A DNA stretch of 64,000 bases from Deltaproteobacteria bacterium (GTDB taxonomy: Bacteria; Myxococcota_A; Polyangia; Polyangiales; JADJMO01). The notes under the pieces were generated by a model. That model searched no databases. It saw only the letters and a program-made list of their open reading frames with translations, and was not told the DNA's origin. The translations under genes and the position numbers were made by a program. Shown in pieces: positions 2,134 through 25,095 of the stretch; the stretch's first letter is position 1; each line of letters starts with the position of its first letter. The stretch covers positions 124,001 to 188,000 of the forward strand of contig JANYDK010000011.1 in NCBI GenBank assembly GCA_025363655.1. Reading direction: 5' to 3'.

Positions 2134-2134
2134 C

Positions 2135-4504
2135 ATGCGGATCCGATCGCTCCGCGCCCGCGCGCTCGCGCTCGCGCTGATCGCCGCTCCGGCGGTGATC
2201 GTCGCGACCGCGCACGACGCGTCCGCGAAACTAGGACAAGGCGAAGCGGTCGGCGCCGCGTCCGGTGAGCTCGACGCCGTCGAGAAAGAGCTCCCGGGCG
2301 CCATCGCCAACGCCAGCAAGGTGGGCATCGCGCTGCGTTCGGCCGATCAGATGATCGCCGACGGCGAGCTCCTCTTCCGACTGCGCGACTACCCCCGCGC
2401 GATCCTCGTCTTCTCGCAGATCATCGAGAAGTATCCGAACGACAAGCCGGCCTACGCCGAAGCGCTCTATCGTGCCGGCGAGGCGCTCTACGCTTCGCGC
2501 GATTTTCTCTCGGCGCGCAACAAGTTCAAGCTCGTCGCCGATCACGGTAAGGAGAGCGAATTCCGCCCCTATGCCTCGCGCTCGGTAGCGCGGCTCGTCG
2601 ACATCGCGATGCGCGTCGACGATCCGAAAGATCCGAAATCGGCTGACGAAGTCCTCGCCCGCATCGCCCAGCTCGGTCCGAGCGAGGTCGACTCGACGAT
2701 TCTCTACGCCAAGGGCAAGGCGCAATATTTCAAGAAAGACCTCGACGCGGCCAAAGCCACGCTCGGCTCGGTCGGTGCCGATGGCGGCTTCCAGCACCAA
2801 GCTCGTTACATCGTCGGCGTCATCGCGCTCAAGCAGTCGCAGGCGGGCAAGTACGCCGCCGCCATCGACACCTTTCGCAAGGTGACCGAGCTTCCGGGTG
2901 ACACCGACGATCACAAAGAGGTCATCGACCTCGCGTGGATGGCGATCGGCCGTCTCTTCTACGAGATGGACCAGCTCGATCAAGCGGTTCTCGCCTACCA
3001 GCACATCGATCGCGCGAGCAAGCAGTTCGACACGATGCTCTATGAGATCGCCTGGGTCTACGTCCGCCAAGAAGACCAGGACAAGGCGACCCGCGCGCTC
3101 GATCTGCTCGCCCTCGCCAATCCCGACAGCCCCTACAGCGTCGAAGGCGAGTTGCTCAAGGCTGACATCCTCCTTCGCAAAGCAGACTTCTCCAAGGCCC
3201 TCGAGACCTACGAGAAGGTGCGCGACGAAATCGATCCGCTGCGCAAGCGCATCGACGACTACCTCGCGAGCGGAAAAACGGCCTCCGAGTACTACGACAA
3301 GCTCACCGGCAACCAACTCGACGCCCTCGACGGGCCCGACGCGCTCCCTCCCTTGGTCATTCGCTGGGCGAAAGAAGAGGAAGACGGCGCCCTCGCCTTC
3401 GCGGTGGTCGAAGACGTGCAGCAGACGAAGCAGCTCCTCGCGGAAGCGCAGCAGATGCTCGACAAGCTGCAGCTCGTCGCCAAGGGCTCGAACAAGGTCA
3501 AAGCGTTCCCAGAGATGAAGGACGCGTACCAGCGCATCCTCGCCCTCCTCAACCGCATTTCGCGCGCGCGACTCGACGTCGGCGAAGGCCTCGACGACGC
3601 CGAGCCCGGTGACCTCGGCGGCTTCCCCGAGCTCAACGCGGTCCGCGATCAGCGGCGCCGCCTCGAGAAGGAAATCGCCGGCCTCCCCTTCGACGAGCAG
3701 GGTTTCGCCAAGCGTGAAGAAGAAGCCAATGCCCAGTGGCGCGGCGTGTCTCAGCAGCTGCAACAGCGCCAAATCGAAATCGACATGCTGCAGGCGCAAT
3801 CGAACGCGCTTCGGCACTACTTGAAGACGAAGGTCGACGCCGGCGGGCAGAAGCTCGGTCCGGCGCAAATCGCCGAGTATCAGAAGCAGCTCGACGACAT
3901 CGACAAGGAGCTCGAAGGGCACCGCAAGGAAGCGACGGCGCTGCGACTGCTCGTCGAGCAGGGCAAAGTGCAGGTTGGGATCGGCGACGCGCGTTTCCAA
4001 GCCGACGCCGACGCTCGCGCTCAATATCGCGACCTCCTCGACAAAGAGGTGGCTCTCGTCTCGGCGCAGCTCGGCGGCGACGCCAAGAACTACGCCGCGA
4101 AGGCCGCCCCCGTCCTCGCGCGGGCCCGCGTCACCGAGCAGAAGGTCGAAGACCAGAAAGCCGTGCTCGATGCCGAGCTCGGCAAGAAGCTCACTGGGCT
4201 ACAGGCTCAGCTCGACGCCGAACAGGCTGCCCTCAACGGCTATCGCGATCAGCTCGCCAAGTTCGACGACGAAGCGCGCAGCGTGGTCGGCGAGGTGGCG
4301 AAGCGCAACCTCGGCCTCGTCCGCGACAAGCTGACGGCGCTGGTGATGCGTGCCGAGGTCGGCATCGTCGATCAAGCGTGGAACGAGCGCGAAGTGCGCA
4401 AAGCAATCCTCCGCGATCGCCAGGTAGAGCTCAAAGAGCAGGAACGCCTCCTCGATGACGAGCTCAAGGCGATCACCAACGACGGCGCGGCCGGCATCGA
4501 GTGA
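2135..4504 (+). CDS. Periplasmic TPR and coiled-coil protein
   Basis: This 789-residue protein starts at the ATG one base after the preceding stop; the longer upstream frame lies inside gene one and is rejected. A signal peptide spans about residues 1-36 and ends near DASA. TPR-like helical pairs follow at about 60-400, for example YPRAILVFSQIIEKYPND and AYAEALYRAGEALYASRDF. The second half, about 440-780, is charged and strongly coiled-coil. TPR proteins of this kind occur as periplasmic scaffolds in the gliding (Glt) complexes of Myxococcus. The specific orthologue cannot be assigned by eye. It shares an operon with two more TPR proteins and an ExbB-like protein, which suggests a trans-envelope complex. 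Confidence 0.85.
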   Translation: MRIRSLRARALALALIAAPAVIVATAHDASAKLGQGEAVGAASGELDAVEKELPGAIANASKVGIALRSADQMIADGELLFRLRDYPRAILVFSQIIEKYPNDKPAYAEALYRAGEALYASRDFLSARNKFKLVADHGKESEFRPYASRSVARLVDIAMRVDDPKDPKSADEVLARIAQLGPSEVDSTILYAKGKAQYFKKDLDAAKATLGSVGADGGFQHQARYIVGVIALKQSQAGKYAAAIDTFRKVTELPGDTDDHKEVIDLAWMAIGRLFYEMDQLDQAVLAYQHIDRASKQFDTMLYEIAWVYVRQEDQDKATRALDLLALANPDSPYSVEGELLKADILLRKADFSKALETYEKVRDEIDPLRKRIDDYLASGKTASEYYDKLTGNQLDALDGPDALPPLVIRWAKEEEDGALAFAVVEDVQQTKQLLAEAQQMLDKLQLVAKGSNKVKAFPEMKDAYQRILALLNRISRARLDVGEGLDDAEPGDLGGFPELNAVRDQRRRLEKEIAGLPFDEQGFAKREEEANAQWRGVSQQLQQRQIEIDMLQAQSNALRHYLKTKVDAGGQKLGPAQIAEYQKQLDDIDKELEGHRKEATALRLLVEQGKVQVGIGDARFQADADARAQYRDLLDKEVALVSAQLGGDAKNYAAKAAPVLARARVTEQKVEDQKAVLDAELGKKLTGLQAQLDAEQAALNGYRDQLAKFDDEARSVVGEVAKRNLGLVRDKLTALVMRAEVGIVDQAWNEREVRKAILRDRQVELKEQERLLDDELKAITNDGAAGIE

Positions 4505-4511
4505 GGTCTCC

Positions 4512-7500
4512 GTGACGGATCCTTCGCACAAAAACACTCGTTCCAAGTCCACGCGCTACGCCAGCGCGCTCTCGATCGTGCTCGCGGGAGTGGCCTTTTC
4601 CGAGGTCGCCGTCTCGCAGGCGACGAAGCCGCCGCCGGCCGCCAGTGCCAAGCCAGCGACGAGCGCGAAGCCAGGCGCCAAGGCGAGCGGAAAGCCCGCC
4701 CCCGTCGACTTCAACGCGCCGCCGCCGAATTTCGCGCCGAAACCGCCGGGCGTGTACTCGGTACTGAACGAGAAGGGGCCAGGCCTCCCCGTCCTCGTGG
4801 CGACGCAGCCATGGCCGGCGACGGTCCTCGGTGTGGCCCCCGTCGCCGCAGCCACGGCGGCCACGCCGGTCTCGACCAACGGCCCGCCCGCACCTCCCGA
4901 AGATCAGGTCACCGCGCTCGCACAGCTCGAAGCGGCGGCGAAAGACTACAAAGCCGGCGCCGCCTCCTACAGCAAGGCCGTCGCGCAAATCATCCGTCAG
5001 CGCTACGAACAGAAGCGCAAGGCGCGTCTCTCGCAGCTGCAAGAGAACATCGACAAAGATCAGGTCGAGCTCCGTAAAGCGCGTCTCGACACGATGGAGC
5101 GTCTGAAGGCGTTCCTCGCCAAGTACCCCGACGTCCCCGAGCACACCCCCAACGCGATGTTCCGGCTCGCAGCGCTCTATGAAGAGCAGGCCGTCGACTC
5201 CGACGTCGATCCGGCCGATCCGGATTACACGAACAAGCTCCGCGCCGCCTACGAGCCGGCCGAGCGACTCTATCGCGACATCCTCACGCGCTTCCCCGCC
5301 TATTCGCAGCGGCCGGCGGTGCACTTCTTCCTCGGCGCGCTCCTCAACGACACGGGGCGTGGACCGGAGTCGGTCTTCGTCTGGCGCGCGCTCGTCTGCG
5401 GCAACAAGTACCAGTTCCCGCTCCCCCCGCCGAAAGACGCTGCCGAGGAGAAAGAGCGCGCGAAGTGGAAAGAGGGCATCGCGCCGATCCCGCAAGACCA
5501 CGACATGGCCTTCTGGGACAAGTGGCGCGAGACGCACTACACGGTCCCCGATCCCAAGGCGAAGAAGAAGCCCGTCGCACCGCCGAAGAAGGGCGCTCCG
5601 GCGGTGGCCAGCACCAACGAGGACGAGTTCGTCGATCCGTATCCCGACGAGTGCGTTCCGCTCGGCGGCGGCAAGACGGCGACCGGCGAAGAGGTGCAGT
5701 TCGTCGCGCAGGCCTGGTGGCGAATCGGCGAATACCACTACGCGCGCGGCGATGACGGCGCGGAAGAAGAAGGCTATTTCGGCGCGAGTCCCTACCGGCT
5801 CAACCGCGCACTCACCGCGTACACGCATGCGACGAAGACCGAGAACGAAACGGTCAAGGTCTTCGCGATGTACAAGATCGCCTGGACTCTCTACAAAGAG
5901 CAGCGCTACACGGCCGCGCGCAACAAGTTCATGGAGCTGCTCGCCTACTTCGACGAGAAGGAGAAGAAGGGCGGCTCGGCGGGCGATCAGCAGATGCGCC
6001 AGGACGCGTACGACTACAGCGCGGCCTCGCTGACGTACATCGACATGGACGGCCCGGGCGCCAACGAGCCCTTCATCGAGCGTGACGACATCTTCGGGCA
6101 GTTCTCCGGCAAGGAACTGGAGAAGAAGCTCGAGGTCGCCATCGACCGCGTCCAAGATCCGAAGATCATCCCGCAGGACAAGGTCTGGACGCCGCGCATC
6201 TACAAGGCGCTCGCGGCCGAGTTCGAGTCCGACGAAGTCCAGCTCGACGCCATCCGCACCTACGAGCTCATCCTCAAGAAGTGGGACTGCGATCCGGAAG
6301 CGCCGCAGTTCCAGAAGACGATCGGCGACCTCTACGACCTCCTCGCCATCAAGGCCGAGGCGCAGGCCGAGAAGGACGACTACTCGGCGAAGGCGCTCGA
6401 CGCGCGTACCAAGCTCCTCAACTACGTCGGCAACACGAAGTGGACGGAGTGCAACAAGAACAACCCCGACGCGATTCGCCTCGCGGAGTCGTTGATGAAC
6501 GAAGGCGTGAAGAACGCCGCCGGTCGTCACACGTCGCTCGGTCGCGTGTTCATGTCGAAGGCGCAGTCGTCGACCGAAGGCTCGGCTGACTACAAGTCGA
6601 ACCTCCAGCACGCGCGTGACGAGTACCTCCTCGCCGAACGCGGATGGCAGGCGTACCTCGGCCAAGATCCGGACGCCGCCGACTCGTACGACTCGAAATT
6701 CTTCATCGCCGACGCGCGACACAAAATCATCCTCGCGACGCGCAAGCTCGACGAGAAGCTCGATCCGAAGAAGGTCGACGAGGCGCGCACCGCCGCCGTC
6801 GAGGTCCGTGATTCGAACCTCGACGACAAGTACCTCCGCTACTCCGCCTACTTCGCGGTCGACGTCGTCGACATGCTCGCCGACGAAGGCTTCGAGGCGA
6901 ACAAGAAGGCCGGCTGCGGTCTCGGCGTCGGGCTCGAAGTGGTCGAGTCGCCGCTCGACGAACCGCAGGACGCCTGTCGTACCGAAGGGGAAAAAGAAGG
7001 CCGGGACGAGAAGACGCAGAAGCGCATCTGGATCCGGACCATCCCCGATCCCGTCGTCCGCACGTTCCGCGAACGCGACGAGTACGTGTCGAAGGTGCCG
7101 ACCTCGCTCGACGTCGACAAGAACGCCGCGCGCTTCGAATACGAAATCGCCGACGGCCTCTATCGCTACGGTCATTTCGACGAGGCCGCCGGACGGTACG
7201 AGAAAATTTGGCGCGATCGCTGCGGCAAGGACGAGAGCGGCTTCGAGGCTTGGTATCGCCTCGGCGTCATGTCGAACTTGATGGGCAACAGCAAGCGTTC
7301 GCTCGAGCTCGTCGCCGAAGAGAAGACCAAGAAGTGCGCGATGAACGAGGAGCAACGGCAGCGCGAGAAGGAATTCTCCGATCCGACCGAGCTCCAGGCG
7401 CTCTACCAGCAGGCCGACGAAGCGTTCAACGCCGCTGAAAAAGAGACCGATCCGAAGCTGAAGGCGGCGAAGTACCGCGAGGCTGCCGCGAAGTACGAGC

Positions 7501-8996
7501 TCGCCCTCAAGCGCGCTCCGTCGCGTCCGGAAGCTCCGCGCGGCGCGATGAACTCGGCCTACTGCTACAAGCAGGTGAACGACTACAAGCGCGCGGCCGA
7601 GGTCTACCGCTTCTTCCTCGACAAGTACGGCAAGGAAGAAGACCTCATCGCCTACCGCGATGGCGACGCGAAGAAGGGCATCAAGAAGGACCCGGAACAG
7701 TTCAAGACGCGCCTCGACTACACGAAGAAGGCGCTCGACGAGCTCGGCCGCACGTACCTGCAGGCGTTCGACTACGCCAACGCCGCCAAGCACTACGACG
7801 AGGTCGCGGGGCGCACGCTCCTCGACGAGGCCCAGCGCCGCGACGCCGCCTCGAACGCGACCATCCTCCAAGCGAACCTCGGCAACCGCGAGAAGATGCA
7901 GGCCGACTTCGCCAAGTTCCTCACCTTCCATCCGAGCGCTGCCGACAAGGCCGAGCTCGAGTTCGTCGTCGACGAGTTCGAGTTCAAGCAGTGGAAGCAG
8001 ACGCCGAGCGACAACGCGCAGAAGGCGCGCGCGTCGACGGCGCTCGAGAAGTATTACACGGCGTACAAGGGCCAGGCCCCCGCCGCGAAGTTCATCGTCG
8101 ACGCCGCCTACGATCTCGCGACGATGAAGAAGACGGCCGGCGAGGCCACCTTCCGCGATTGGTACAAGAAGACCAGCGACGCCTTCCTCACCTACAAGGG
8201 CGGAAACAAAGACGCTGCCGGCTCGCGCGAGTCGGATTTCGGCGCCGAAGCGGCGTACTTCTTCGTCAACGAGCAAATCGAAAAGGAGTGGGACACCGCG
8301 CCCGGCCAGCCGCCCAAGATCAAATACGAAGGCGAAGGCAAGACGGTCGTCACCAAGCTCGAAGCCGACGACAAGAAGCGCGAGAAGTTCCTCACCGAGC
8401 TCGACGACATCAACAAGACCTACGTCTCGCCGAAGCTCTTCCCGGTCGTCCTCAGCCGTGAGGGGACGGTCTACGACACGCAGCGCACCGCGCTCGCCAA
8501 GTCGAAGGTCGAGGTCCTCGACAAGGCCACGGCCGCGAAGATCACCGCGATCGAGAACAAGGCGCAGAAGATCCTCGACGACCCGAAGGCCTCGGACGAA
8601 TCGAAAGATCAGGCCACCGCGCTCCTCGGGCAGGCCGACGACATCCGTCGCGCGACCAACAAGGCTTGGACCGACAAGCGCGCCGCTTACTACAAGGTCC
8701 TCGAGCCGGGGATGATCGACCGCTATTGCCGCGGCTATCTGCGCGGCAAGCAGTTCGACGTCAAAGATCCGATGGTGAGCAAGGCCGTGCAGCGCCTCGC
8801 GTTCTACACGGACCAACTGAACGACACGAAGATGCGCGAGTACCTGATCGGCGTCGAGAAGGACATGCCCCCCTTCAAGTACGTCGATCAGATGTTCAAG
8901 AAGGCGCGTCCCGGTTCGCTCAGCGCACCGCAGCCGTCGGTCGATACGCCGACGGGCGGGGTCGTGAGCGCGGGCGCACCGAAGGCGAGCGAGTGA
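4512..8996 (+). CDS. Very large periplasmic TPR protein
   Basis: The product is 1494 residues if translation starts at the GTG 7 nt after the previous stop. Its N-terminus has a basic patch and a hydrophobic stretch that resemble a signal peptide ending near VAVSQA. A Pro/Ala linker follows. The rest is almost entirely helical and Lys/Glu/Asp-rich, with many degenerate TPR units such as AMFRLAALYEEQAV, KVFAMYKIAWTLYKEQRY and AMNSAYCYKQVNDYKRAAEVY. Size and composition recall the large AgmK/GltI-type TPR protein, but that link is inference. The stop overlaps the next ATG by one base (TGATG), a sign of translational coupling. A long minus-strand open frame across this gene is a composition shadow. 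Confidence 0.87.
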   Translation: MTDPSHKNTRSKSTRYASALSIVLAGVAFSEVAVSQATKPPPAASAKPATSAKPGAKASGKPAPVDFNAPPPNFAPKPPGVYSVLNEKGPGLPVLVATQPWPATVLGVAPVAAATAATPVSTNGPPAPPEDQVTALAQLEAAAKDYKAGAASYSKAVAQIIRQRYEQKRKARLSQLQENIDKDQVELRKARLDTMERLKAFLAKYPDVPEHTPNAMFRLAALYEEQAVDSDVDPADPDYTNKLRAAYEPAERLYRDILTRFPAYSQRPAVHFFLGALLNDTGRGPESVFVWRALVCGNKYQFPLPPPKDAAEEKERAKWKEGIAPIPQDHDMAFWDKWRETHYTVPDPKAKKKPVAPPKKGAPAVASTNEDEFVDPYPDECVPLGGGKTATGEEVQFVAQAWWRIGEYHYARGDDGAEEEGYFGASPYRLNRALTAYTHATKTENETVKVFAMYKIAWTLYKEQRYTAARNKFMELLAYFDEKEKKGGSAGDQQMRQDAYDYSAASLTYIDMDGPGANEPFIERDDIFGQFSGKELEKKLEVAIDRVQDPKIIPQDKVWTPRIYKALAAEFESDEVQLDAIRTYELILKKWDCDPEAPQFQKTIGDLYDLLAIKAEAQAEKDDYSAKALDARTKLLNYVGNTKWTECNKNNPDAIRLAESLMNEGVKNAAGRHTSLGRVFMSKAQSSTEGSADYKSNLQHARDEYLLAERGWQAYLGQDPDAADSYDSKFFIADARHKIILATRKLDEKLDPKKVDEARTAAVEVRDSNLDDKYLRYSAYFAVDVVDMLADEGFEANKKAGCGLGVGLEVVESPLDEPQDACRTEGEKEGRDEKTQKRIWIRTIPDPVVRTFRERDEYVSKVPTSLDVDKNAARFEYEIADGLYRYGHFDEAAGRYEKIWRDRCGKDESGFEAWYRLGVMSNLMGNSKRSLELVAEEKTKKCAMNEEQRQREKEFSDPTELQALYQQADEAFNAAEKETDPKLKAAKYREAAAKYELALKRAPSRPEAPRGAMNSAYCYKQVNDYKRAAEVYRFFLDKYGKEEDLIAYRDGDAKKGIKKDPEQFKTRLDYTKKALDELGRTYLQAFDYANAAKHYDEVAGRTLLDEAQRRDAASNATILQANLGNREKMQADFAKFLTFHPSAADKAELEFVVDEFEFKQWKQTPSDNAQKARASTALEKYYTAYKGQAPAAKFIVDAAYDLATMKKTAGEATFRDWYKKTSDAFLTYKGGNKDAAGSRESDFGAEAAYFFVNEQIEKEWDTAPGQPPKIKYEGEGKTVVTKLEADDKKREKFLTELDDINKTYVSPKLFPVVLSREGTVYDTQRTALAKSKVEVLDKATAAKITAIENKAQKILDDPKASDESKDQATALLGQADDIRRATNKAWTDKRAAYYKVLEPGMIDRYCRGYLRGKQFDVKDPMVSKAVQRLAFYTDQLNDTKMREYLIGVEKDMPPFKYVDQMFKKARPGSLSAPQPSVDTPTGGVVSAGAPKASE

Positions 8997-10573
8997 TGGT
9001 CATGGAATCTCGAGAGAGCATCGGCGTCCGTCTCACTCGTCGCTTCGGCGGCGTGACGCTCGTCGTCGTGATGGCCGCCGTCCCCGGCTTCCTCGCTGCG
9101 TGCGGCGACAAGAAGCCGGCAAAGTCGGCCGTCGCCGCAACCGCCACCAAGGACACTGCTGGTACGGCGGCGACGACGCCGACGCCGACCGGCGATCAAG
9201 GCGACGCGCCCCCTCCCCCGCCGGCACCCGGCGAAACCAGCAAGCTCGTCGGCGCTGCACGCGATGCCTACGATCGCGGCGTCGCGTCTTACAACGCTGG
9301 CGATTTGGCGGGCGCGCTCACCGCGTTCCAGCAAGCGGTCGGCGCCGAGTCGAAGGCCTACGAAGCGCACTACGCTCTCGCCGTCACCTACGAGCGCATG
9401 GGCAAGAACAGCGAGGCGCTCGAGCACTATCGCGAGGCGTACAAGCTGAACCCGAACTACGACGCGGCGATCGCCGGCTACGGCTACTTGCTCTATCGGC
9501 AAGGCAGCAAGACGGAAGCCGAGAGCTTCCTCACCGATCAACAGGCGAAGAATTCGAAGTCGGTCGGTCTGATGACCGCGCTCGCCGAGGTCAAATCACT
9601 GCAGGGCGACAGCGCCAACGCCCAGCGGTTGGCCGGCGACGCGCTCACCGCAGAAGCCAAATACGAGCCCGCGATGGTGCTCATCGCCCGCGATCACTAC
9701 CGCCGCGGTCGCCTCGATCTCGCGAGCTACGTGCTCACCGCCATCCTCGACGGGCAGAAGACCGAAGACGAGAAGGCGAAGGGACTCCCTGCCAAGACCA
9801 ACCCGCCGCGCGCGCCGAACAACCCCGAGGCGCACCTTCTTCGCGCGATGATCTTGCAGAAGATGGGCGAGCGACTCGCTGCGGCGAAGTGGTTCGAATC
9901 TGCCTCGAAATTGCGTCCCGATCTCGTCGAGGCGCGATTGCAGCTCGGCCTCATCCGCCTCGAAGCCAACGACGCCGATGGCGCGCTCGAGCCGCTGCAG
10001 AAGGCGGTGGCGTATGCCTCGGGCAACGTCGAAGCGCACCTCGCGCTCGGCGAGGCCTATCGCCTCTCGGCCGGAAAATCGGCCGATGCCAAGGCGCAGT
10101 ACAACTGGGTGCTCGGGGCTCCCGCCGCAGCGGCCCAGCTCAAGGCGCTCGCACAATACGACCTCGGCCTTCTCTTCTTCCTCACGCCGAGCATCGACGG
10201 CCTCAGCGATTCAGCTCGCTACGACAAGTCGATCGGCTACTGGAACGATTTCAAGGCAGCGAAGGGTGGCTCGAATGGTCCGAGCTGGCCATCCGATGCC
10301 GACGACTTGATCGATCAGGCAAGGCGCGCGAAGACCGCTGCGGCAGCTGCTGGCACCGGCGCGGGTGCAGCGACGCCGAAACCGGCGACGACGACGGCCG
10401 CTCCCACCACCTCCGCGAAAGCGTCGGCTGCCCCGACGCCGACGACCGTACCGACGCCGACGACCGCGCCGAAACCGACCGCTGCCCCGACGCCGACGCC
10501 GACGACCGCGCCGAAGCCCACGGCCGCGCCGACGACGACGAGCACTGCAGCGGCACCGAAGACCACGTTCTGA
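8996..10573 (+). CDS. TPR lipoprotein with Pro/Thr-rich tail
   Basis: This 525-residue protein has a signal peptide with lipobox LAAC and the acceptor Cys at about residue 36, so it should be membrane-anchored. An Ala/Thr/Pro linker is followed by TPR repeats at about 80-340. Clear units are AYDRGVASYNAGDLAGALTA and AYEAHYALAVTYERMGKN. The last 70 residues are a low-complexity Pro/Thr/Ala tail encoded by short GACGCC-type repeats. ATG 8996 overlaps the preceding stop; ATG 9002 is an alternative. In Myxococcus a TPR lipoprotein of similar plan (AglT/GltE type) anchors the motility complex at the outer membrane. Assignment here is by analogy only. Confidence 0.87.
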   Translation: MVMESRESIGVRLTRRFGGVTLVVVMAAVPGFLAACGDKKPAKSAVAATATKDTAGTAATTPTPTGDQGDAPPPPPAPGETSKLVGAARDAYDRGVASYNAGDLAGALTAFQQAVGAESKAYEAHYALAVTYERMGKNSEALEHYREAYKLNPNYDAAIAGYGYLLYRQGSKTEAESFLTDQQAKNSKSVGLMTALAEVKSLQGDSANAQRLAGDALTAEAKYEPAMVLIARDHYRRGRLDLASYVLTAILDGQKTEDEKAKGLPAKTNPPRAPNNPEAHLLRAMILQKMGERLAAAKWFESASKLRPDLVEARLQLGLIRLEANDADGALEPLQKAVAYASGNVEAHLALGEAYRLSAGKSADAKAQYNWVLGAPAAAAQLKALAQYDLGLLFFLTPSIDGLSDSARYDKSIGYWNDFKAAKGGSNGPSWPSDADDLIDQARRAKTAAAAAGTGAGAATPKPATTTAAPTTSAKASAAPTPTTVPTPTTAPKPTAAPTPTPTTAPKPTAAPTTTSTAAAPKTTF

Positions 10574-10866: not shown

Positions 10867-11478
10867 GTGCTGATTCTTCTCGGCGTCCTCATCGTCTCGC
10901 TGCCGATCAGCCTCGCGCTGCGCACCGTACTCCGACTGGTGCGCGTGCTCGGCGGTGCAGACGCAGCTGAAGTGGCGGTCATCGTCAGCGCTTCGCCGGA
11001 CGTCGACTTGGCGCCGATCGCCGAAGCCGTTCGTCGAGAAGCACCGGGCAGCATCCCCGATCGACTCTTGACCGCCGTGACCACCGGTGACGATCGCGCG
11101 CTCGCGAGGCGACTTTCTCTCGCCGAAGCCGTCGCCGACATCGAACGGTCGGTGGTCGACGACGTGCGTGTCCCGCGTGTGGCCGCCTCGCTGGCAACGA
11201 CGTCTGGGCTCCTCGCCGCCGCACTGGTGATGCGCGAGGGCCTCTCGGCCACAGTTGTCGAAGAGGGCGGCGCCGCCGTCGTCGCTCGATTCACCGGCGT
11301 CATCGAGCGCGGACTGACCATGGCGGCGATCGCCGTGCTGGGTGGGGTGGTGTGCGCAGCTCTTCATCGAACGGCCCAGAAAGAGCGTCGGGCCCGGCTC
11401 GATGAGCTCGACGCCCTCGTATCGCCCCTCGCCGTGCGCTTCGGCAATCCGCTCGACGGCGTTCCCGACAGGAAGTGA
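10867..11478 (+). CDS. ExbB/TolQ/MotA-like inner-membrane protein
   Basis: This 203-residue protein starts at GTG and opens with a transmembrane helix (about 1-20). A cytoplasmic stretch of about 85 residues follows. Two more hydrophobic helices lie near 112-128 and 148-168, and the protein ends with a basic, helical tail (AQKERRARLDELDALV). The order of one helix, a cytoplasmic domain, two helices and a basic tail is that of the TolQ/ExbB proton-channel family. The segment SLATTSGLLAAALV lines up with the family's pore helix. Divergence is high, so the call is moderate. In gliding myxobacteria a TolQ-like subunit (AglR) powers the Glt complex. No TolR/ExbD-like partner is encoded next to it. 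Confidence 0.75.
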   Translation: MLILLGVLIVSLPISLALRTVLRLVRVLGGADAAEVAVIVSASPDVDLAPIAEAVRREAPGSIPDRLLTAVTTGDDRALARRLSLAEAVADIERSVVDDVRVPRVAASLATTSGLLAAALVMREGLSATVVEEGGAAVVARFTGVIERGLTMAAIAVLGGVVCAALHRTAQKERRARLDELDALVSPLAVRFGNPLDGVPDRK

Positions 11479-11508: not shown

Positions 11509-11638
11509 GGAGGAGAATGCGCTTAATCGCCGCGAGGTCGGGAACCTCGAAGCATCGGCGTTGTCGGCAATACGGGGCCCCGTCCGCGCACGCGTCCGGC
11601 CGTCCTCATGTAGCCAACCATCGCTCGGAGACCGCATC

Positions 11639-13093
11639 ATGAGCATGAACATGGGTCCGCGTTCGCAGCCGGGAGCTGGAGGGAATCGCCCCGGGCAGAT
11701 GACGATGGCCATGCGGGCGATGCCGCAGGTCACCGGTCCGAAGGTCCTTCGCATCGGCAAGGTGCAAGGCGGACGAGTCATCGAAGAGCGCGTCATCAAG
11801 CAGCGCACGCACGTCACGATCGGCTCCAGCCACACCAACATGTTCCTCGCGACGGGCGCTGGCGTCCCCGAGAACATGCGGCTCTTCGAGCTCGTCGGAA
11901 ACGAGTACGTGCTCAACATGAACGACGCGATGACCGGACGCGTGGCCCTGCCCACGGGCGTCACCGACGTCGTCCAGGCTCGCCAGAGCGGCGCCGCCAA
12001 GCGCGTCGGCAATTTCTACCAGCTCCGATTGACCGAAGATTCTCGTGGCAAAGTCGTCATCGGCGACACCACGTTCCTCTTCCAGTTCGTCGCGCCCCCT
12101 CCCGTGCAGCCGAAGCCGCAGCTGCCCCTCGCAGTGCGCGGAGGCCTCGCGTCGCAGATCGACTGGGGCTTCACCATCATCGCGGCGTTCTCGTTTCTCA
12201 TCCACTTCGGCTTCGCCGGCGCGGTCAACAGCGATTGGTTCGATCCCGTCGTCGACGACGATCTCGAAACGGCCGCGCTCATCGAGCACGCCAAAGATCG
12301 TCCGATGCCGCAGCTCGAGGAGCCGCCCAAGCCCGCCGAAGATCTGACGGCGAAGAAGGATGAGTCGAAAAAGGACGACAAGGGCGAGAAGAAGGACGAG
12401 CCGAAGAAGCCTGCGCCTGGTGCGGGTGCGGCGCCGAAGCCCGCGCAGATGACCGCGCAGCAGGGAGCGGCGCTCTCCAACGAGCTCGATCAATTGCAGA
12501 TGAAGGCGCTCGGCAGCCTCGGTACCAATGGTCCGGCGCAGTCGAGCATCCTCAAGTCGGGCTCTTCGGCGGCCGACTCGAGCCTCGACCAGCTCGCGAA
12601 GAACGGCGGCGGCATCGACACCGGTAGCGGACTCAAGACCGGTGGTCCTGGCGGCGGCCCTGTCCTTCCGGGTGGCCCGGGCACCGGTCTCACGGGCATC
12701 GGCAACACGGCAGGCACAGGAACCGCGAAACCTGGCGGCACGGGCGACAAGTCGAGCGACGTCAAGGTTCCGACCGGCGATGCGGCGACAGGCGCGGCAG
12801 CCGGTGCGAGCAACGTCAAGGACGCCGACTCGGTCATTGCGCGCAACCGTTGGCGCTTCAAAGCTTGCTACTCCAAGGCGCTCGCGAGCGACCCGAACGC
12901 CGGCGGCACCGTCAAGGTCACCGTCCGCGTCGGTGAAGGCGGCGAAGTCACGGGAGCCAACCTCGCATCGAGCGACGCGGGGGCTGGCCTCGCGCAGTGC
13001 ATCGTCTCGGCCTTCCTCGGCATGAAGTTCTCGGAGCCCGACGGCGGTTCCGCGACCTTCACCGTTCCCGTCGTGCTCTCGGCGAAAAAATAG
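11639..13093 (+). CDS. AgmX/PglI (GltG-like) trans-envelope protein: FHA-like, TM, TonB-like C-terminus
   Basis: The 484-residue product has a cytoplasmic FHA-like domain at about 33-152 (VTIGSSHTNMF, YQLRLTEDSRGKVVIG). A single transmembrane helix spans about 178-197. A long Lys/Glu/Pro and Gly-rich periplasmic region follows. The C-terminal AgmX/PglI-type domain (about 395-484) carries VIARNRWRFKACYSKALA, VKVTVRVGEGGEV and two Cys residues. This plan matches Myxococcus GltG/PglI, in which the periplasmic part reaches toward the outer membrane. The zinc-ribbon and GYF domains of AgmX/GltJ are absent. ATG 11639 is chosen because the longer frame runs through the preceding gap. A terminator follows the gene. 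Confidence 0.88.
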   Translation: MSMNMGPRSQPGAGGNRPGQMTMAMRAMPQVTGPKVLRIGKVQGGRVIEERVIKQRTHVTIGSSHTNMFLATGAGVPENMRLFELVGNEYVLNMNDAMTGRVALPTGVTDVVQARQSGAAKRVGNFYQLRLTEDSRGKVVIGDTTFLFQFVAPPPVQPKPQLPLAVRGGLASQIDWGFTIIAAFSFLIHFGFAGAVNSDWFDPVVDDDLETAALIEHAKDRPMPQLEEPPKPAEDLTAKKDESKKDDKGEKKDEPKKPAPGAGAAPKPAQMTAQQGAALSNELDQLQMKALGSLGTNGPAQSSILKSGSSAADSSLDQLAKNGGGIDTGSGLKTGGPGGGPVLPGGPGTGLTGIGNTAGTGTAKPGGTGDKSSDVKVPTGDAATGAAAGASNVKDADSVIARNRWRFKACYSKALASDPNAGGTVKVTVRVGEGGEVTGANLASSDAGAGLAQCIVSAFLGMKFSEPDGGSATFTVPVVLSAKK

Positions 13094-13308: not shown

Positions 13309-13866
13309 ATGGCTTCACGCGTGAAATGGATCGCCGCTACGCCTGTACTGTTGGGCTCGCTGATTTTTGGATCGGCAGCTGCGCAGCCGGCTGCCGGCAC
13401 GGTCGACGTGAAGTCGGGCTCCGCGGTCGCCCCTGGTGATCAAGCGGGTCTCGCCGACTCGTACGTCGCCAAGATTCAGACCTCGGCCACCCGCGTTCGT
13501 CACCTTCTCGACGATGCGCGTCGCCAAAAAGACGTCGTCAAGACCACCTGCCTCAGCGACAAGCTGGCGCAAATCGAAGTCGCTTCGCGCAGCGCGAAGG
13601 ACCGCAGCGGCTCGCTGAAGTCGGCGATCGCGCGCGGTGACACCGACCTCCGCAACCACGAGTTCTCGGTGCTCAACGTCCTCCGTCAGCGCGCCGAAGT
13701 GCTCGACGCAGAGGCCAACCAGTGCATCGGCGAAGAGCTCGGGTTCCCGGGCGAGACGAAGGTTAATTTCTCGGTCGACCCGAACATTGCTCCGGTCGAC
13801 CCTGGAACCGGTGAGGGCACCGTCGTCGTTATCGTTCCGCCCCTTCCCGCGAGCGGGTTTAAATGA
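13309..13866 (+). CDS. Small periplasmic helical protein upstream of export port
   Basis: This 185-residue protein has a signal peptide ending near GSAAAQ (about residue 26). A helical, charged domain spans about 45-145. It contains AKIQTSATRVRHLLDDARRQ and two Cys residues that could form a disulphide (TTCLSD and NQCIGE). A Pro/Val-rich tail ends VVVIVPPLP. A GGAGG sequence 7 nt upstream fixes the ATG. I do not recognise the family. It is the first gene of a plus-strand run followed by a beta-barrel and an OPX protein, so a role as a periplasmic accessory of polysaccharide export is plausible but unproven. Confidence 0.82.
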   Translation: MASRVKWIAATPVLLGSLIFGSAAAQPAAGTVDVKSGSAVAPGDQAGLADSYVAKIQTSATRVRHLLDDARRQKDVVKTTCLSDKLAQIEVASRSAKDRSGSLKSAIARGDTDLRNHEFSVLNVLRQRAEVLDAEANQCIGEELGFPGETKVNFSVDPNIAPVDPGTGEGTVVVIVPPLPASGFK

Positions 13867-13988
13867 CCAGCAGTCGCAGTAGGCGTTAGGCAGTCGGCGT
13901 CGAATTGCTGTAGTTAAGCGCACGCAGTCGCATCGTTCCGCATGGCATCCCCGGGGTGGGGGGCGGGATGGTCGCTGAGCGAGAGTCC

Positions 13989-15308
13989 ATGAAACGCTTC
14001 GTCTTCGCCTTCTTCGCAGCTGCATCGGTTAGCTCGGTCGCCGCAACCGCGAGCGCCCAGGCATGGCTGAGCGATCGCTCGTCCACGCAAGGGCCTGGCA
14101 TCCGGTCGGGAGACCTCGAGCTTCACCCGGGAATCGCGGCCGAGGTCGGCTACGACTCCAACTATTTCAGTCGCTCGAAGAGCCAAACCGGCCTGCCGGT
14201 GGTGGACACCCTGCGGCTTCGCGTCACCCCTTCTTTTCACGTCAGCACACTGACCACGCAGCGTAAGGACGGGGCGCCGGCCGCTCCGCCGAAGGTCAGC
14301 TTCGACGCTGGCGCGGCGCTCATCTACAGCCAATTTCTCACCAACGCGAGCAGCGACGGAACCGACCAGACCAAGCTCGGACGCTCCAACGAGTTCGGTG
14401 TGCAGGGCGATCTCGCTCTCCTCATCAACCCCGGTCGGCCGTGGGGCTTCAACATCCTCGACACCTACGTGCGCACGACGCAGCCTTCGCTCGTCGCCGA
14501 CAAGAGCTTCGGTCTCGATCGTGACGATAACCGCGTCGCGGGAGAAGTCGTCTACACGAAGCCCGGCGGCCTCCTCGATTGGCGCGTTGGTTACGCTTTC
14601 GGCATCACATACTTCGAGCAAGGCAACGTCCAGAGCCTCAACAACACGCGCCACGAGATCTACACGAAGGGCCGCTGGAAGTTCCTTCCGCGCACCGCCT
14701 TCGTCTACGACGGCAGCGTTCAAGTCATTCGCTACTCGAACACGACCACGCTCGAAGGGTCGACTCCTCTACGGACGCGCTTCGGCCTCAGCGGACTGCT
14801 CACCGACCGTCTCAGCCTCCTCGCGATGGTTGGCTGGGGCGCGAGCTTCTACAAGAACGACAAGGACTTCGACTCGATCATCGGGCAACTCGAGCTTCGT
14901 TACTTCTTCAATGGCGCGGCGCCCGACGCGGGCAGTACCGCTCCGCCCTCGATGTCATCGATTGCCTTCGGCTTCACTCGTGATTTCTACAACTCGTACT
15001 TGAGCAACTACTACGAGCGCGATCGCGGCTACGTACAGGTGAGCGCGCTCATCGCGCAGCGTTTCTACCTCGGTCTCGACACTGGCGTCGCCCTCATCAA
15101 GTACGGCGGCATCAAGGGTGGCGGCGCCGAAACGGTCAGTGGCGCACGCATAGATGCTGCGGTCTTCGGTGAGTATCGCGTCAGTGATTGGCTGGGCTTC
15201 AACGCCACGGCGCAGTACTTGGGTGACACGACGAATGCCACAGTTGGCACCCTCCACCTGGATTTCAATCGTTTCCAGGGTCTGGTCGGCGTTCGCGCCT
15301 TCTGGTGA
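13989..15308 (+). CDS. Outer-membrane beta-barrel, Wzp-like partner of OPX protein
   Basis: The 439-residue protein has a signal peptide that ends at TASA (about residue 22). The remainder is rich in alternating aromatic/polar strands, for example YDSNYFSRSKSQ, FGFTRDFYNSYLSNYYERDRG and LGFNATAQYLG. It ends in ALVGVRAFW-type sequence with a terminal aromatic residue, as expected for a barrel recognised by the Bam machine. Its place 57 bp before a short OPX lipoprotein matches the myxobacterial arrangement in which a separate barrel provides the outer-membrane pore. ATG 13989 is chosen because the signal peptide starts exactly there. Confidence 0.85.
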   Translation: MKRFVFAFFAAASVSSVAATASAQAWLSDRSSTQGPGIRSGDLELHPGIAAEVGYDSNYFSRSKSQTGLPVVDTLRLRVTPSFHVSTLTTQRKDGAPAAPPKVSFDAGAALIYSQFLTNASSDGTDQTKLGRSNEFGVQGDLALLINPGRPWGFNILDTYVRTTQPSLVADKSFGLDRDDNRVAGEVVYTKPGGLLDWRVGYAFGITYFEQGNVQSLNNTRHEIYTKGRWKFLPRTAFVYDGSVQVIRYSNTTTLEGSTPLRTRFGLSGLLTDRLSLLAMVGWGASFYKNDKDFDSIIGQLELRYFFNGAAPDAGSTAPPSMSSIAFGFTRDFYNSYLSNYYERDRGYVQVSALIAQRFYLGLDTGVALIKYGGIKGGGAETVSGARIDAAVFGEYRVSDWLGFNATAQYLGDTTNATVGTLHLDFNRFQGLVGVRAFW

Positions 15309-15365
15309 TTCGGCTGTAGTTGCACCTCGTCGCGGTCGACCATAGAGGGTCCGCAGGGTCTCGTC

Positions 15366-15962
15366 ATGGTCATGTCCCGCCGAATCACCGCCGCATTGCT
15401 CGCCGTCGTCATGACGGGGTGCGCCTCACCGCCGGCACGTCCGGTGAAGCTTCCTCCGCCTGTCGAGGCGTCTTCGCTTGGTCCGGGCGACGTTTTGGAA
15501 GTGCTCGTCTACGACGAGCCGTCGATGTCCAAGCCCTTCAAGGTCGCGCCCAACGGCACCATCGATTTTCCGCTCGTCGGAAACGTGGAAGTCGAGGGGA
15601 AGGAGCCGCAAGAGATCGCCGCTCTCCTCCGTGCTCGCCTGAAAGACGGGAAGATCCTCAAAGATCCGCAGGTCTCGGTGCAGGTCAAAGAGGTGAACTC
15701 GAAGAAGTTCGCCGTCTTCGGACAGGTGCAGAAGCCCGGACAATTTCCGATGACCGAGGGGATGACCGTCGTGCAGGCTATCTCTCTGGCAGGCGGCTTC
15801 ACGCCGCTCGCCGATCGTGATCGCGTGACGCTCAACCGCAAGATCGCCAAGGACAAGGTGGTGCGCGTCGTCTTTTCGGTCGCCGCGATGACCGAAGGCA
15901 AGATCAACGACGTGCCACTGCAGGCCGGCGACACGATCTACGTCGAAGAGCGCGTCTTCTGA
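15366..15962 (+). CDS. OPX (Wza-type) polysaccharide export lipoprotein, short form
   Basis: The product has 198 residues. The lipobox MTGC places the lipidated Cys at about residue 19. A polysaccharide-export (PES) domain follows at about 36-110 (LGPGDVLEVLVYDEPSM, GTIDFPLVGNV). One SLBB domain lies at about 112-195 (GQVQKPGQFPMTEGMTVVQAISLAGGF). The chain stops right after SLBB, so the amphipathic helix that Wza uses to cross the outer membrane is missing. This fits export through the separate beta-barrel encoded just upstream. No glycosyltransferase, flippase or polymerase gene is nearby. Confidence 0.92.
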   Translation: MVMSRRITAALLAVVMTGCASPPARPVKLPPPVEASSLGPGDVLEVLVYDEPSMSKPFKVAPNGTIDFPLVGNVEVEGKEPQEIAALLRARLKDGKILKDPQVSVQVKEVNSKKFAVFGQVQKPGQFPMTEGMTVVQAISLAGGFTPLADRDRVTLNRKIAKDKVVRVVFSVAAMTEGKINDVPLQAGDTIYVEERVF

Positions 15963-15978: not shown

Positions 15979-17010
15979 GTGACCAAGCCGCACGTCGTGC
16001 TCATCCAGACGGGCGGCACCTTGGCGATGCCGGTCGACGACGACGACGCTGGCGGGACCCTCGCGCCGGGCAAGGCGAAGATCGATCTACGGGCCGTCGT
16101 GCCAGGGATCGGACGCGTCGCCGACGTCGAAGTGGTCGAGCTCTTCAACCTCGACTCCGGTGACATGCAGCCGTCGCATTGGCTGACGATGGCGCGCGCG
16201 GTGCACGAGGCGCTGATGCGCACGGAGGTGTCCGGCGTGGTCGTCACGCATGGCACCGACACGATGAGTTACACGGCGAGCGCGCTCTCGTTTCTCCTCG
16301 GGCCGCTCCCGAAGCCGGTGGTGCTCACGGGTGCGCAAAGGCCACTCGGTGATCTGCGGACCGATGCCCGCGCCAACCTCGTCGACGCGACGATCGGCGC
16401 AACGCTGCCCGTACCCGAAGTGCTGATCGCGTTTGGTGCGCGGCTCCTTCGAGGCTGCCGCACCTCCAAGGTCGACGCCTGGGCCTTCGATGCCTTCGCG
16501 TCGCCCGGTGCGCCGCCGCTGGTCGAGCTCGGGCTCTCGGTGCAAGTGGCGCCGCACGTGCGCGGAAAGACGGCCCTCACGCCGCTCGATCTCTCGATTG
16601 AACCGCGCGTCTTGGCGGTACGCGTCTTTCCCGGGCTCGATCCGCGCCTGGTGATGGGTGCGGTGCGCGCTGGCGTGAAGGGCTTGGTCCTCGAGGGATA
16701 TGGGACCGGAAATTTGCCGAACCTCGTCGGCTCGTCGCTCATCCCGGCGATCGAGGAAGCGCAGGAGCGCGGCGTGCCGGTGGTGGTCGTCTCGCAGTGC
16801 ATGCGCGGACACGTCGACCTCGAGCGGTACGAAGGCGGCGCAGCTGCGAAGTGGGCGGGCGCGATCGATGGCGGTGACATGACCGTCGAGGCCGCGCTCG
16901 CGAAGCTGATGGTCGGGCTCGCTCGTCACACCGATCCGGCCGAGCTGCGGGCCTACATGCTGGCGGACGTGGTCGGCGAGCGCGTGTCCGCAGGTGTTCG
17001 CGACCTTTAG
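15979..17010 (+). CDS. Type I L-asparaginase
   Basis: This 343-residue enzyme should hydrolyse L-asparagine to aspartate and ammonia. Both family signatures are present: QTGGTLAM near the N-terminus, with the nucleophilic Thr at residue 14, and VVTHGTDTM at about 88-96, with the second Thr-Asp pair. VVLTGAQRPL and the C-terminal SQCMRGHVD also fit the family. There is no signal peptide, so the enzyme is cytoplasmic. The start is GTG 15979, preceded by GGAG at -9, 16 nt after the OPX stop. The stop overlaps the end of the convergent Kelch-like gene by 4 bp. Confidence 0.93.
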   Translation: MTKPHVVLIQTGGTLAMPVDDDDAGGTLAPGKAKIDLRAVVPGIGRVADVEVVELFNLDSGDMQPSHWLTMARAVHEALMRTEVSGVVVTHGTDTMSYTASALSFLLGPLPKPVVLTGAQRPLGDLRTDARANLVDATIGATLPVPEVLIAFGARLLRGCRTSKVDAWAFDAFASPGAPPLVELGLSVQVAPHVRGKTALTPLDLSIEPRVLAVRVFPGLDPRLVMGAVRAGVKGLVLEGYGTGNLPNLVGSSLIPAIEEAQERGVPVVVVSQCMRGHVDLERYEGGAAAKWAGAIDGGDMTVEAALAKLMVGLARHTDPAELRAYMLADVVGERVSAGVRDL

Positions 17011-24003: not shown

Positions 24004-24597
24004 TTAGCCGCCGCCGCCCTTTTTCAGTTCCGTGAGCACCAGCTTGGCCACGGCCTTGAGCGTCTCGAAGACGCCGATGCCGGTGCGCGCGCAGGCCTCG
24101 TATTCGGGGATGTTGGTCGGGTTGAGCAGCTCGTGCAGCTCGGCGACGTCGGCGACGTTGGGCAAGTCGCGCTTGTTGTACTGGATGACGTACGGGAGCT
24201 TGTCGAGGTCGTAGCCCTGCTCGTTCAAGTTCGTCCGCAAGTTGTCGAGCGACTCGATGTTCGCTTCGGTACGCTCGATTTGCGAGTCGGCGACGAAGAC
24301 GACGCCGTCGACACCCTTCAAGATGAGCTTGCGGCTCGCGTCGTAGAAGACCTGCCCCGGCACCGTATAGAGCTGGAAACGGGCCTTGAAACCGCGGATT
24401 TCGCCGAGGCTGAGGGGGAGGAAGTCGAAGAAGAGCGTTCGCTCCGTCTCGGTGGCGAGCGAGATCAGCTTGCCCTTCGCAGCCGGGTTCGTGCGCTCGT
24501 AGATGTACTGGAGGTTCGTCGTCTTCCCGCAGAGACCTGGACCGTAATAGACGATCTTACAGTTGATCTCGCGAGCCATGTAGTTGATGAACGACAT
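24004..24597 (-). CDS. mglA: MglA, Ras-like polarity GTPase
   Basis: MglA is the small GTPase that sets front-rear polarity in gliding bacteria and recruits the Glt/Agl machinery and type IV pili at the leading pole. The 197 residues carry the diagnostic sites of the family. The P-loop GPGLCGKTT is at 19-27. Arg53 is the intrinsic finger. Thr78 stands where Ras has Asp, followed by Gln82. NKRD is at 141-144, with Asn141 and Asp144. Numbering agrees residue for residue with the known Myxococcus protein at these sites. The gene lies 12 nt downstream of mglB, in the conserved mglB-mglA order. Confidence 0.98.
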   Translation of the reverse strand: MSFINYMAREINCKIVYYGPGLCGKTTNLQYIYERTNPAAKGKLISLATETERTLFFDFLPLSLGEIRGFKARFQLYTVPGQVFYDASRKLILKGVDGVVFVADSQIERTEANIESLDNLRTNLNEQGYDLDKLPYVIQYNKRDLPNVADVAELHELLNPTNIPEYEACARTGIGVFETLKAVAKLVLTELKKGGGG

Positions 24598-24609
24598 CGG
24601 CTGGTTCGC

Positions 24610-25095
24610 TCAATCGTTGAACAGGTTGTCGATGTCCTCGTCGGAGATCTCGGCGAACGGCGTGTCGGCGCCGGGATCCTGGACCTTCTTCAGGAGCGTC
24701 TCGAAGATCTTGTTCAGCTCTTCGGAGGCCTTCTTCACGCGCAGGCGGACGAGGCCGAGCGAGCTGCGTGAGTCGAAGATGACGACGAGGATGACGCGGT
24801 TGCCGACGAGCTGAATGTGGACGTTCTGCTTCGTCCCCTCGTGGAACTGCGTGGCGAACTCTTCTTCGCGCAGCAGTTTGGCCATGCCGCCCGTCGCGGC
24901 GATGTTGCCGGCGGTGAGCGAAGCGAGTGAAGTGGTGTCGAGGTTCTCGACGTCACCAGAGGCAGCAATGAGCTGCCCATTCTTGTCGACGATGAAGACG
25001 ACCTTGGCGTTCGCGTCCTTCACCAGCTTGTCGACGACTTGCTGGATGAGGTTGAACTCCTCTTCGTACATCACCATCTGCGGGTCTTTGGCCAT
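24610..25095 (-). CDS. mglB: MglB, Roadblock/LC7 GTPase-activating protein
   Basis: MglB activates GTP hydrolysis by MglA at the lagging pole. The 161-residue protein is a single Roadblock/LC7 domain (about 10-125) containing VVFIVDKNGQLIAASGD, SLTAGNIAATGGMAKLL and VILVVIFDSRSSLGLVRLR. A C-terminal acidic tail ends EISDEDIDNLFND, equivalent to the helix through which MglB contacts MglA. ATG 25095 is preceded by a GAGG at about -10. Downstream genes mglA and the methyltransferase follow at 12 and 15 nt. Confidence 0.97.
   Translation of the reverse strand: MAKDPQMVMYEEEFNLIQQVVDKLVKDANAKVVFIVDKNGQLIAASGDVENLDTTSLASLTAGNIAATGGMAKLLREEEFATQFHEGTKQNVHIQLVGNRVILVVIFDSRSSLGLVRLRVKKASEELNKIFETLLKKVQDPGADTPFAEISDEDIDNLFND

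Follow-up and report, generated by a model that had tools for sequence, protein, structure and literature searches.

The DNA considered here is a stretch of 64,000 nucleotides (hereafter the window) from the assembly of a deltaproteobacterium (GCA_025363655.1, contig JANYDK010000011.1, positions 124,001 to 188,000), whose genome (G000) amounts to 9.0 Mb in 150 contigs. At 13309-15962 it carries the genes for an outer-membrane beta-barrel and a short outer-membrane polysaccharide export (OPX) lipoprotein, which an initial annotation took for an orphan export port. The orphan label was not borne out: Glt-like genes lie upstream in a fixed order with the port, and the arrangement is conserved. 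The interval also holds a third gene, at 13309-13866, that was absent from the initial annotation. GltC-, GltD-, GltE- and GltG-like genes occupy 1.3-13 kb of the window, and the trio of port genes closes this block. Conservation was followed in 59 contexts of at most 20 kb each, hand-chosen for family spread from the 128 of 144 searched genomes in which the barrel is present; a sixtieth context (L096), on another OPX contig, was left out, and only contexts long enough to judge enter each denominator. The hidden Markov models (HMMs) applied to them were built partly from the same contexts, so that their sensitivity is flattering, whereas presence and gene order are direct. The genes are as follows:

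1267-2133, forward strand: 288-residue protein, first conserved gene of the block (HMM from the window protein and one relative)
2021-4504, forward strand: GltC-like TPR protein, start codon uncertain (NCBIfam NF033756; Myxococcus-group orthologs)
4455-8996, forward strand: GltD-like large protein of 1513 residues (position; HMM of order-level orthologs)
8996-10573, forward strand: GltE-like TPR protein (NCBIfam NF033758; orthologs)
10867-11478, forward strand: 203-residue protein, found in 9 of 59 contexts
11606-13093, forward strand: GltG-like inner-membrane protein with a TonB-like AgmX/PglI tail (NF033760, NF033768, GltG tree)
13309-13866, forward strand: secreted protein of 185 residues with three helices, completing the port trio (signal peptide by eye; predicted helices; conservation)
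13989-15308, forward strand: outer-membrane beta-barrel, WzpB ortholog (structure prediction, orthology, C-terminal aromatic residue)
15366-15962, forward strand: short D1-D2 (class 3) OPX lipoprotein, WzaB ortholog (Pfam, PDB match, alignment, tree)
15979-17010, forward strand: asparaginase, probably outside the system (Pfam; 16 bp downstream of the OPX gene)

The 198-residue OPX protein matches Poly_export at residues 35-108 (Pfam, E 1.6e-22) and SLBB_2 at 113-193 (E 9.1e-15). Only five residues remain after the second match, which leaves no room for a helix of the Wza type. These coordinates bear out the initial description of an OPX protein that ends after a single SLBB domain, and a self-sufficient (class 1) protein like Wza, with its C-terminal amphipathic outer-membrane helix, was discarded on the same ground. 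Cys19, within a lipobox recognised by eye, is invariant in 33 of 33 aligned sequences, and the neighbouring OPX proteins of the order-level contexts are similarly short (186-221 residues as extracted, n=52). The best solved relative is PDB 9n9a (E 5.3e-34), the next entries following at E 1.5e-17. On the EpsY equivalog model the protein reaches 83 bits, short of the cut-off of 320.

The barrel gene is separated from the OPX gene by 57 bp, on the same strand, and from the gene at 13309-13866 by 122 bp. Its 439-residue product belongs to no curated family and has a weak match to OMP_b-brl below the cut-off (E 0.015). With 39 orthologs, AlphaFold2 predicted a barrel (mean pLDDT 85.1, pTM 0.83) with 16 long strands from residue 103 onwards, one more at residues 48-56 and an interrupted strand at 74-87, making about 18 when counted by eye, as expected from the initial claim that the gene directly upstream of the OPX gene encodes a beta-barrel. 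In structural alignment, OprD/Occ porins were the top solved matches (Z up to 19.3, rmsd 5.0, 302 residues aligned), in a near tie with the alginate exporter AlgE (Z 18.4, rmsd 4.2, 305 aligned). Foldseek gave a diffuse result in which TonB receptors, porins, BcsC and a polysaccharide secretin barrel (4y25) were mixed. Fold comparison thus leaves exporter versus porin undecided; orthology to WzpB, set out below, settles the matter in favour of the exporter.

The third gene encodes a protein with no Pfam family above cut-off and no NCBIfam match. Its model has helices at 42-72, 76-109 and 112-140 at high pLDDT (76.3 for the whole model), and Cys81 and Cys139 are invariant in all 22 sequences compared. 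The gene precedes the barrel gene in 53 of 55 contexts, and it accompanies the barrel even where Glt genes are lacking. We regard the protein as a candidate new third component of the composite port.

Comparison with Myxococcus xanthus placed the pair among known export proteins. The Myxococcus-group set consisted of named Myxococcus, Pyxidicoccus, Archangium and Hyalangium genomes, including M. xanthus AM003, recovered with the EpsB of the source genome. Searches with a barrel profile at E<=0.001 gave a single match per genome in the six genomes of this group covered, and the match adjoins an OPX gene of the WzaB clade in all five whose surroundings were examined (G388 is outside this count). 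In an alignment of 436 positions the window barrel and the M. xanthus match are 24% identical (E 1.7e-20). Three OPX matches were found in M. xanthus AM003, and WzaB was told from the other two by its length and by excluding EpsY and ExoA: one reaches 393.9 bits with the EpsY model, above the cut-off, another is a frame of 190 residues, the published length of ExoA, and the third, with the 204 residues published for WzaB, adjoins the barrel match (lengths from PMC9601211). In a tree of 74 OPX rows, a 58-row clade with support of 100/100 comprises the window protein, 52 order-level neighbours, one paralog from the source genome and four Myxococcus-group proteins including M. xanthus WzaB. EpsY and ExoA fall outside it, as does a row (G054_eps) whose very long branch makes its placement unsure.

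Because the OPX protein shares a clade with M. xanthus WzaB, apart from EpsY and ExoA, and because the sole barrel match lies beside WzaB, the window pair is, judged from tree and neighbourhood, an ortholog of WzpB/WzaB and not merely similar to it. The initial suggestion of a match to the published myxobacterial split of export between an OPX protein and a separate barrel (PMC9601211, PMC9603273) has proved correct. The analysis shows the pair to be a predicted composite outer-membrane port of the WzpB/WzaB type, in which an OPX ring would lie under a barrel of about 18 strands. The likeness to WzpB/WzaB (MXAN_1916/1915), the port of the biosurfactant polysaccharide (BPS) pathway, extends to the upstream position of the barrel gene on the same strand, the D1-D2 OPX lipoprotein, the barrel of about 18 strands and the lack of adjacent synthesis genes. 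The spacing differs, WzaB (MXAN_1915) being encoded 23 bp downstream of MXAN_1916 in M. xanthus (PMC9603273). The EpsX/EpsY translocon, whose two proteins interact and stabilise each other, likewise has a short OPX protein and an 18-strand barrel (PMC9601211), but its OPX protein belongs to a different clade. We therefore rejected an exopolysaccharide (EPS) port of the EpsX/EpsY kind, for which the genome moreover has a separate cluster. Over 185 residues WzaB of M. xanthus AM003 is identical to PDB 9n9a; a structure of a short OPX protein of the WzaB clade thus already exists, under a title reading only 'Polysaccharide export protein'.

The genes upstream resemble those of the Glt and Nfs machines. 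The GltC-like protein matches NF033756 with E 1.1e-20 and 73.9 bits (equivalog cut-off 450), and the GltE-like protein matches NF033758 with E 3.8e-17 and 62.4 bits (cut-off 225); the latter scores higher on the PilW model (83.3 bits, E 1.9e-23), also below that model's own cut-off. The GltG-like protein covers profile positions 192-647 of 650 in NF033760 (E 2.3e-27, 95.8 bits, cut-off 650), and its tail exceeds the cut-off of 40 on the AgmX/PglI model NF033768 with 55.7 bits. No FHA domain was detected in it; no Pfam family matches at E<=1, and the profile match begins only at position 192. The GltD-like protein has no NCBIfam GltD match at E<=0.01. Its own HMM finds the GltD position in three Myxococcus-group blocks with 486-523 bits and, more weakly, that of four other Glt/Nfs-type loci with 41-145 bits. 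The 288-residue protein has no Pfam or NCBIfam match at E<=0.01; its HMM finds a counterpart ahead of GltC, as in the window, in Archangium, M. eversor and Pyxidicoccus. The gliding machine proper was rejected on these sub-cut-off scores and on the separation of the GltG-like protein from the G1 copy, described below.

In Archangium lansinium, M. eversor and Pyxidicoccus caerfyrddinensis the whole block is colinear with the window on one strand, in the order 288-residue protein, GltC, GltD, GltE, GltG, three-helix protein, barrel, OPX. In Hyalangium about 10 kb separate GltE-GltG from the port trio behind them. The block of M. xanthus AM003 is broken up by contig ends, leaving GltG and the three-helix gene on one contig and barrel and OPX on another. 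Among the order-level contexts, GltG lies ahead of the barrel in 47 of 52, GltE is present in 45 of 51 (context L064 has no GltE), and the OPX gene follows the barrel in 51 of 57. Conservation across the order and in named Myxococcus-group genomes takes the arrangement beyond chance, and we conclude that the port closes a long-conserved gene block of a Glt/Nfs-like cluster of the lineage called G4 in M. xanthus.

In the loci compared, the association is specific to this lineage of GltG. In eight of eight other GltG loci fetched (three from M. xanthus, three from Archangium, two from the source genome; many weaker matches of the GltG model lie outside this set), neither the barrel nor the three-helix protein nor an OPX gene was found, and the regions of about 20 kb around M. 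xanthus EpsY and ExoA hold no GltC, GltD or GltG match, with a single weak GltE (TPR) match near ExoA. In a tree built from 30 GltG rows (13 picked ones, the window protein, and 16 out of the 50 from the order), the port-linked rows, including that of M. xanthus, split from the gliding G1 copy and other copies with support of 99/98; Mxan_C209, on the other side, has a long branch.

In M. xanthus, homologs of gltD have been listed as MXAN_1922 (cluster G4), MXAN_1327 (G5) and MXAN_3374 (G3, nfs), and the function of G4 was described as unknown (PMC3169522). The locus tags 1915-1922, taken with the gene order observed here, make it very likely that the G4 cluster and the WzpB/WzaB port form one block; that MXAN_1922 would be the GltD of this block is suggested by the proximity of the tags. 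The GltG gene beside the three-helix gene in M. xanthus is of the same lineage as that of the window, and the Glt-like block is alike. In its passages on G4, PMC3169522 describes no polysaccharide port as part of the cluster, and MXAN_1915 has been called orphan-like or outside any polysaccharide cluster (PMC7310880, PMC7484181), whereas here the upstream Glt-like block and the three-helix protein are recognised as conserved partners. In the literature searched, mostly open papers as text without figures and with PMC9601211, PMC7310880 and PMC12288465 among them, we found no statement joining G4 to WzpB/WzaB and no paper naming both MXAN_1922 and MXAN_1916.

The initial annotation had also stated that synthesis, flippase and co-polymerase genes are missing from the window. 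This agrees with our Pfam scan, in which 32 proteins yielded no match to a glycosyltransferase, flippase or co-polymerase, 20 of them scanned only at E<=1e-8 and several open reading frames of the right half lying outside the scan. The sugar substrate is likely made elsewhere than in the window. The genome has three OPX matches, in the window, on contig C39 and on C108. The C39 match lies in an EPS cluster that includes Bac_transf and EpsV-, EpsU-, EpsB- and weakly EpsX-like proteins, the Eps calls being below the equivalog cut-offs; its OPX protein is EpsY-like, and the weakly EpsX-like neighbour is barrel-like. The only PF02397 initiating transferase of the genome is in this cluster. A search of the genome for Wzz (PF02706) gave no match, a weak test since the model also misses the genome's own EpsV. 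The C108 OPX gene (L005:9515-10210, reverse strand) is a close paralog within the window clade. It stands beside DUF4159, VWA and TPR genes and has no obvious barrel, the reading frame at L005 8256-9521 (reverse strand) having been rejected as a candidate, since neither Pfam nor NCBIfam gave a match and the opposite strand has a long frame.

Elsewhere in the order, the link to polysaccharide genes varies. In two genomes (G012 and G030, contexts L047 and L050), which we take to be of the Sandaracinus type, a Wzz+GNVR+AAA_31 co-polymerase is encoded some 2 kb away from the trio. This arrangement fits the account of S. amylolyticus in PMC7310880. At the other end, 23 of 144 genomes have no PF02397 match (PF02397 was the initiating enzyme searched for); among 20 such genomes listed, the barrel is present in 15, and 13 of the 15 have an OPX match as well, eight of the 13 reaching a completeness of 90% or more with contamination of 5% or less (G003, G011, G064, G071, G072, G074, G088, G091; the barrel match of G011 is partial and weak). 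In G071, G074 and G091, where PF02397 has no match, the single OPX match lies beside the barrel. Some lineages therefore link the port to polysaccharide genes, and others retain it although no PF02397 enzyme was detected in them.

The ExbD matches of the source genome include two divergent pairs on contig C32. A TolQ-like gene adjoins each pair, and in BLAST comparisons one of the resulting triplets is closest to M. xanthus AglRQS (AglR 48%) and the other to the second, M2-like triplet (42%). The M. xanthus AglRQS genes were identified through the published lengths of AglR (245 residues) and AglQ (162 residues), and the other triplet is presumed to be M2. The two triplets stand back to back at C32:1-15000 (L263). 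ExbD matches occur in 12 of 12 genomes searched. In the Agl-Nfs system, a proton motor and the contact between AglR and NfsG move secreted spore-coat polymer (PMC3858216). The Nfs complex shares with the present case a Glt-like machine, an AglRQS motor and a secreted polysaccharide. It differs in that Nfs is encoded apart from the Exo port (ExoA) and does its work after export, whereas here port and machine share a block.

We propose, with a probability of about 0.55, that the port belongs, in a functional partnership of some kind, to an envelope machine of the Glt/Nfs type, driven by a motor and acting on a secreted polysaccharide; the identity of the port and the linkage of the genes are established, whereas we infer the mechanical coupling and the substrate. 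The OPX lipoprotein ring would sit in the periplasm beneath the barrel, and an AglRQS- or M2-type proton motor, encoded elsewhere, would drive the GltG-like protein. The TonB-like tail of that protein might cross the periplasm, contact the port and couple the force of the motor to it, and the force might then move, gate or position the polysaccharide exit, much as Agl-Nfs moves spore-coat polymer. Full mechanical coupling of this sort is, in our view, doubtful. Several facts weigh against the proposal. The Glt-like proteins of the window score far below the NCBIfam equivalog cut-offs for GltC, GltE and GltG, and neither motor triplet on C32 adjoins the block. The trio occurs without Glt genes beside the Wzc-type co-polymerase in L047 and L050. 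Three contexts have Glt genes and the barrel without an OPX gene (L048, L051, L062; the three-helix protein is kept in L062 and missing from the other two), and three more have the three-helix protein and the barrel with neither OPX nor GltG (L063, L066, L068). A PF02397-like gene lies within 20 kb in two of the 59 contexts (L045, L055), as would fit an ordinary polysaccharide locus. A polar disruption of MXAN_1922 had no visible effect on motility (PMC3169522), although in a single operon of block and port it should have hit wzpB/wzaB too. PMC3858216 argues that Agl-Glt/Nfs plays no part in export as such, which tells against strong forms of the coupling idea.

A rival explanation is an ordinary WzpB/WzaB port for a BPS-like polysaccharide of the Wzx/Wzy pathway, the Glt linkage being a matter of operon history or co-regulation with no mechanical link. 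This explanation is a genuine possibility, if the lesser one. It draws on the phenotype of the wzaB mutant, which is shared with BPS mutants although wzaB lies 1.016 Mb from the BPS genes (PMC7310880), on the Wzz+GNVR+AAA_31 and PF02397-like neighbours and on the separability of the trio from the Glt block. It leaves unaccounted for why the linkage is kept in most contexts of the order and in Myxococcus-group genomes, which would be unusual without selection, and why 13 of the 20 listed genomes lacking PF02397, 8 of good quality, retain both barrel and OPX gene. That retention could instead mean that barrel and OPX protein serve the Glt-like machine as structural anchors in the outer membrane and conduct no polymer, in line with the outer-membrane components, such as GltH, of Glt machines (PMC3169522). 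The Poly_export/SLBB pair and the OPX fold are typical of exporters, however, and with the wzaB phenotype (PMC7310880) and the Wzc-type neighbour in L047 and L050 they make this improbable. A truly orphan or decaying port without a fixed partner, to which the lack of synthesis genes among the scanned proteins might point, is barely credible, given that the block is kept intact in most contexts examined and conserved in the Myxococcus group, and that the barrel occurs in 128 of 144 genomes.

If the motor-driven port holds, the gliding and spore-coat motor family gains a member tied directly to polymer export. Two open items, the orphan-like BPS port WzaB/WzpB and the G4 cluster, appear to be one. 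A more specific version, which we consider speculative and rather unlikely, is that G4 exports polysaccharide by motor power through an exit port of its own, the force of the proton motor passing through the GltG tail and the three-helix protein. The force would then gate the OPX protein and barrel or drag the polymer, replacing a Wzc-type co-polymerase or acting beside it. Such an exporter, if real, would explain both the orphan look of Myxococcus WzaB and the purpose of G4.

Some further observations concern the surroundings and the searches. The asparaginase gene follows the OPX gene in 12 of 59 contexts. As a phylum-wide marker for Myxococcus the EpsY model was of no use (0 of 282 genomes above cut-off), and EpsB gave no tblastn score above 60 bits in 12 EPS-type regions of other members of the order. 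An EpsB-like gene (52% to the query) in a record titled Comamonas sp. KCTC 72670 (L126) falls among the Myxococcus matches; that label of the organism is doubtful. Pyxidicoccus caerfyrddinensis also has a long Wza-like OPX protein (L250), a frame of 423 residues that is apparently multi-SLBB and unlike the short ones. About 8 kb from the port, at 24007-25095 on the reverse strand, lies a pair of genes resembling mglA and mglB, for a polarity GTPase and its regulator. The first, which gave no Pfam match down to the E<=1e-8 limit, we take to be mglA-like; a Roadblock/LC7 domain marks the product of the second.

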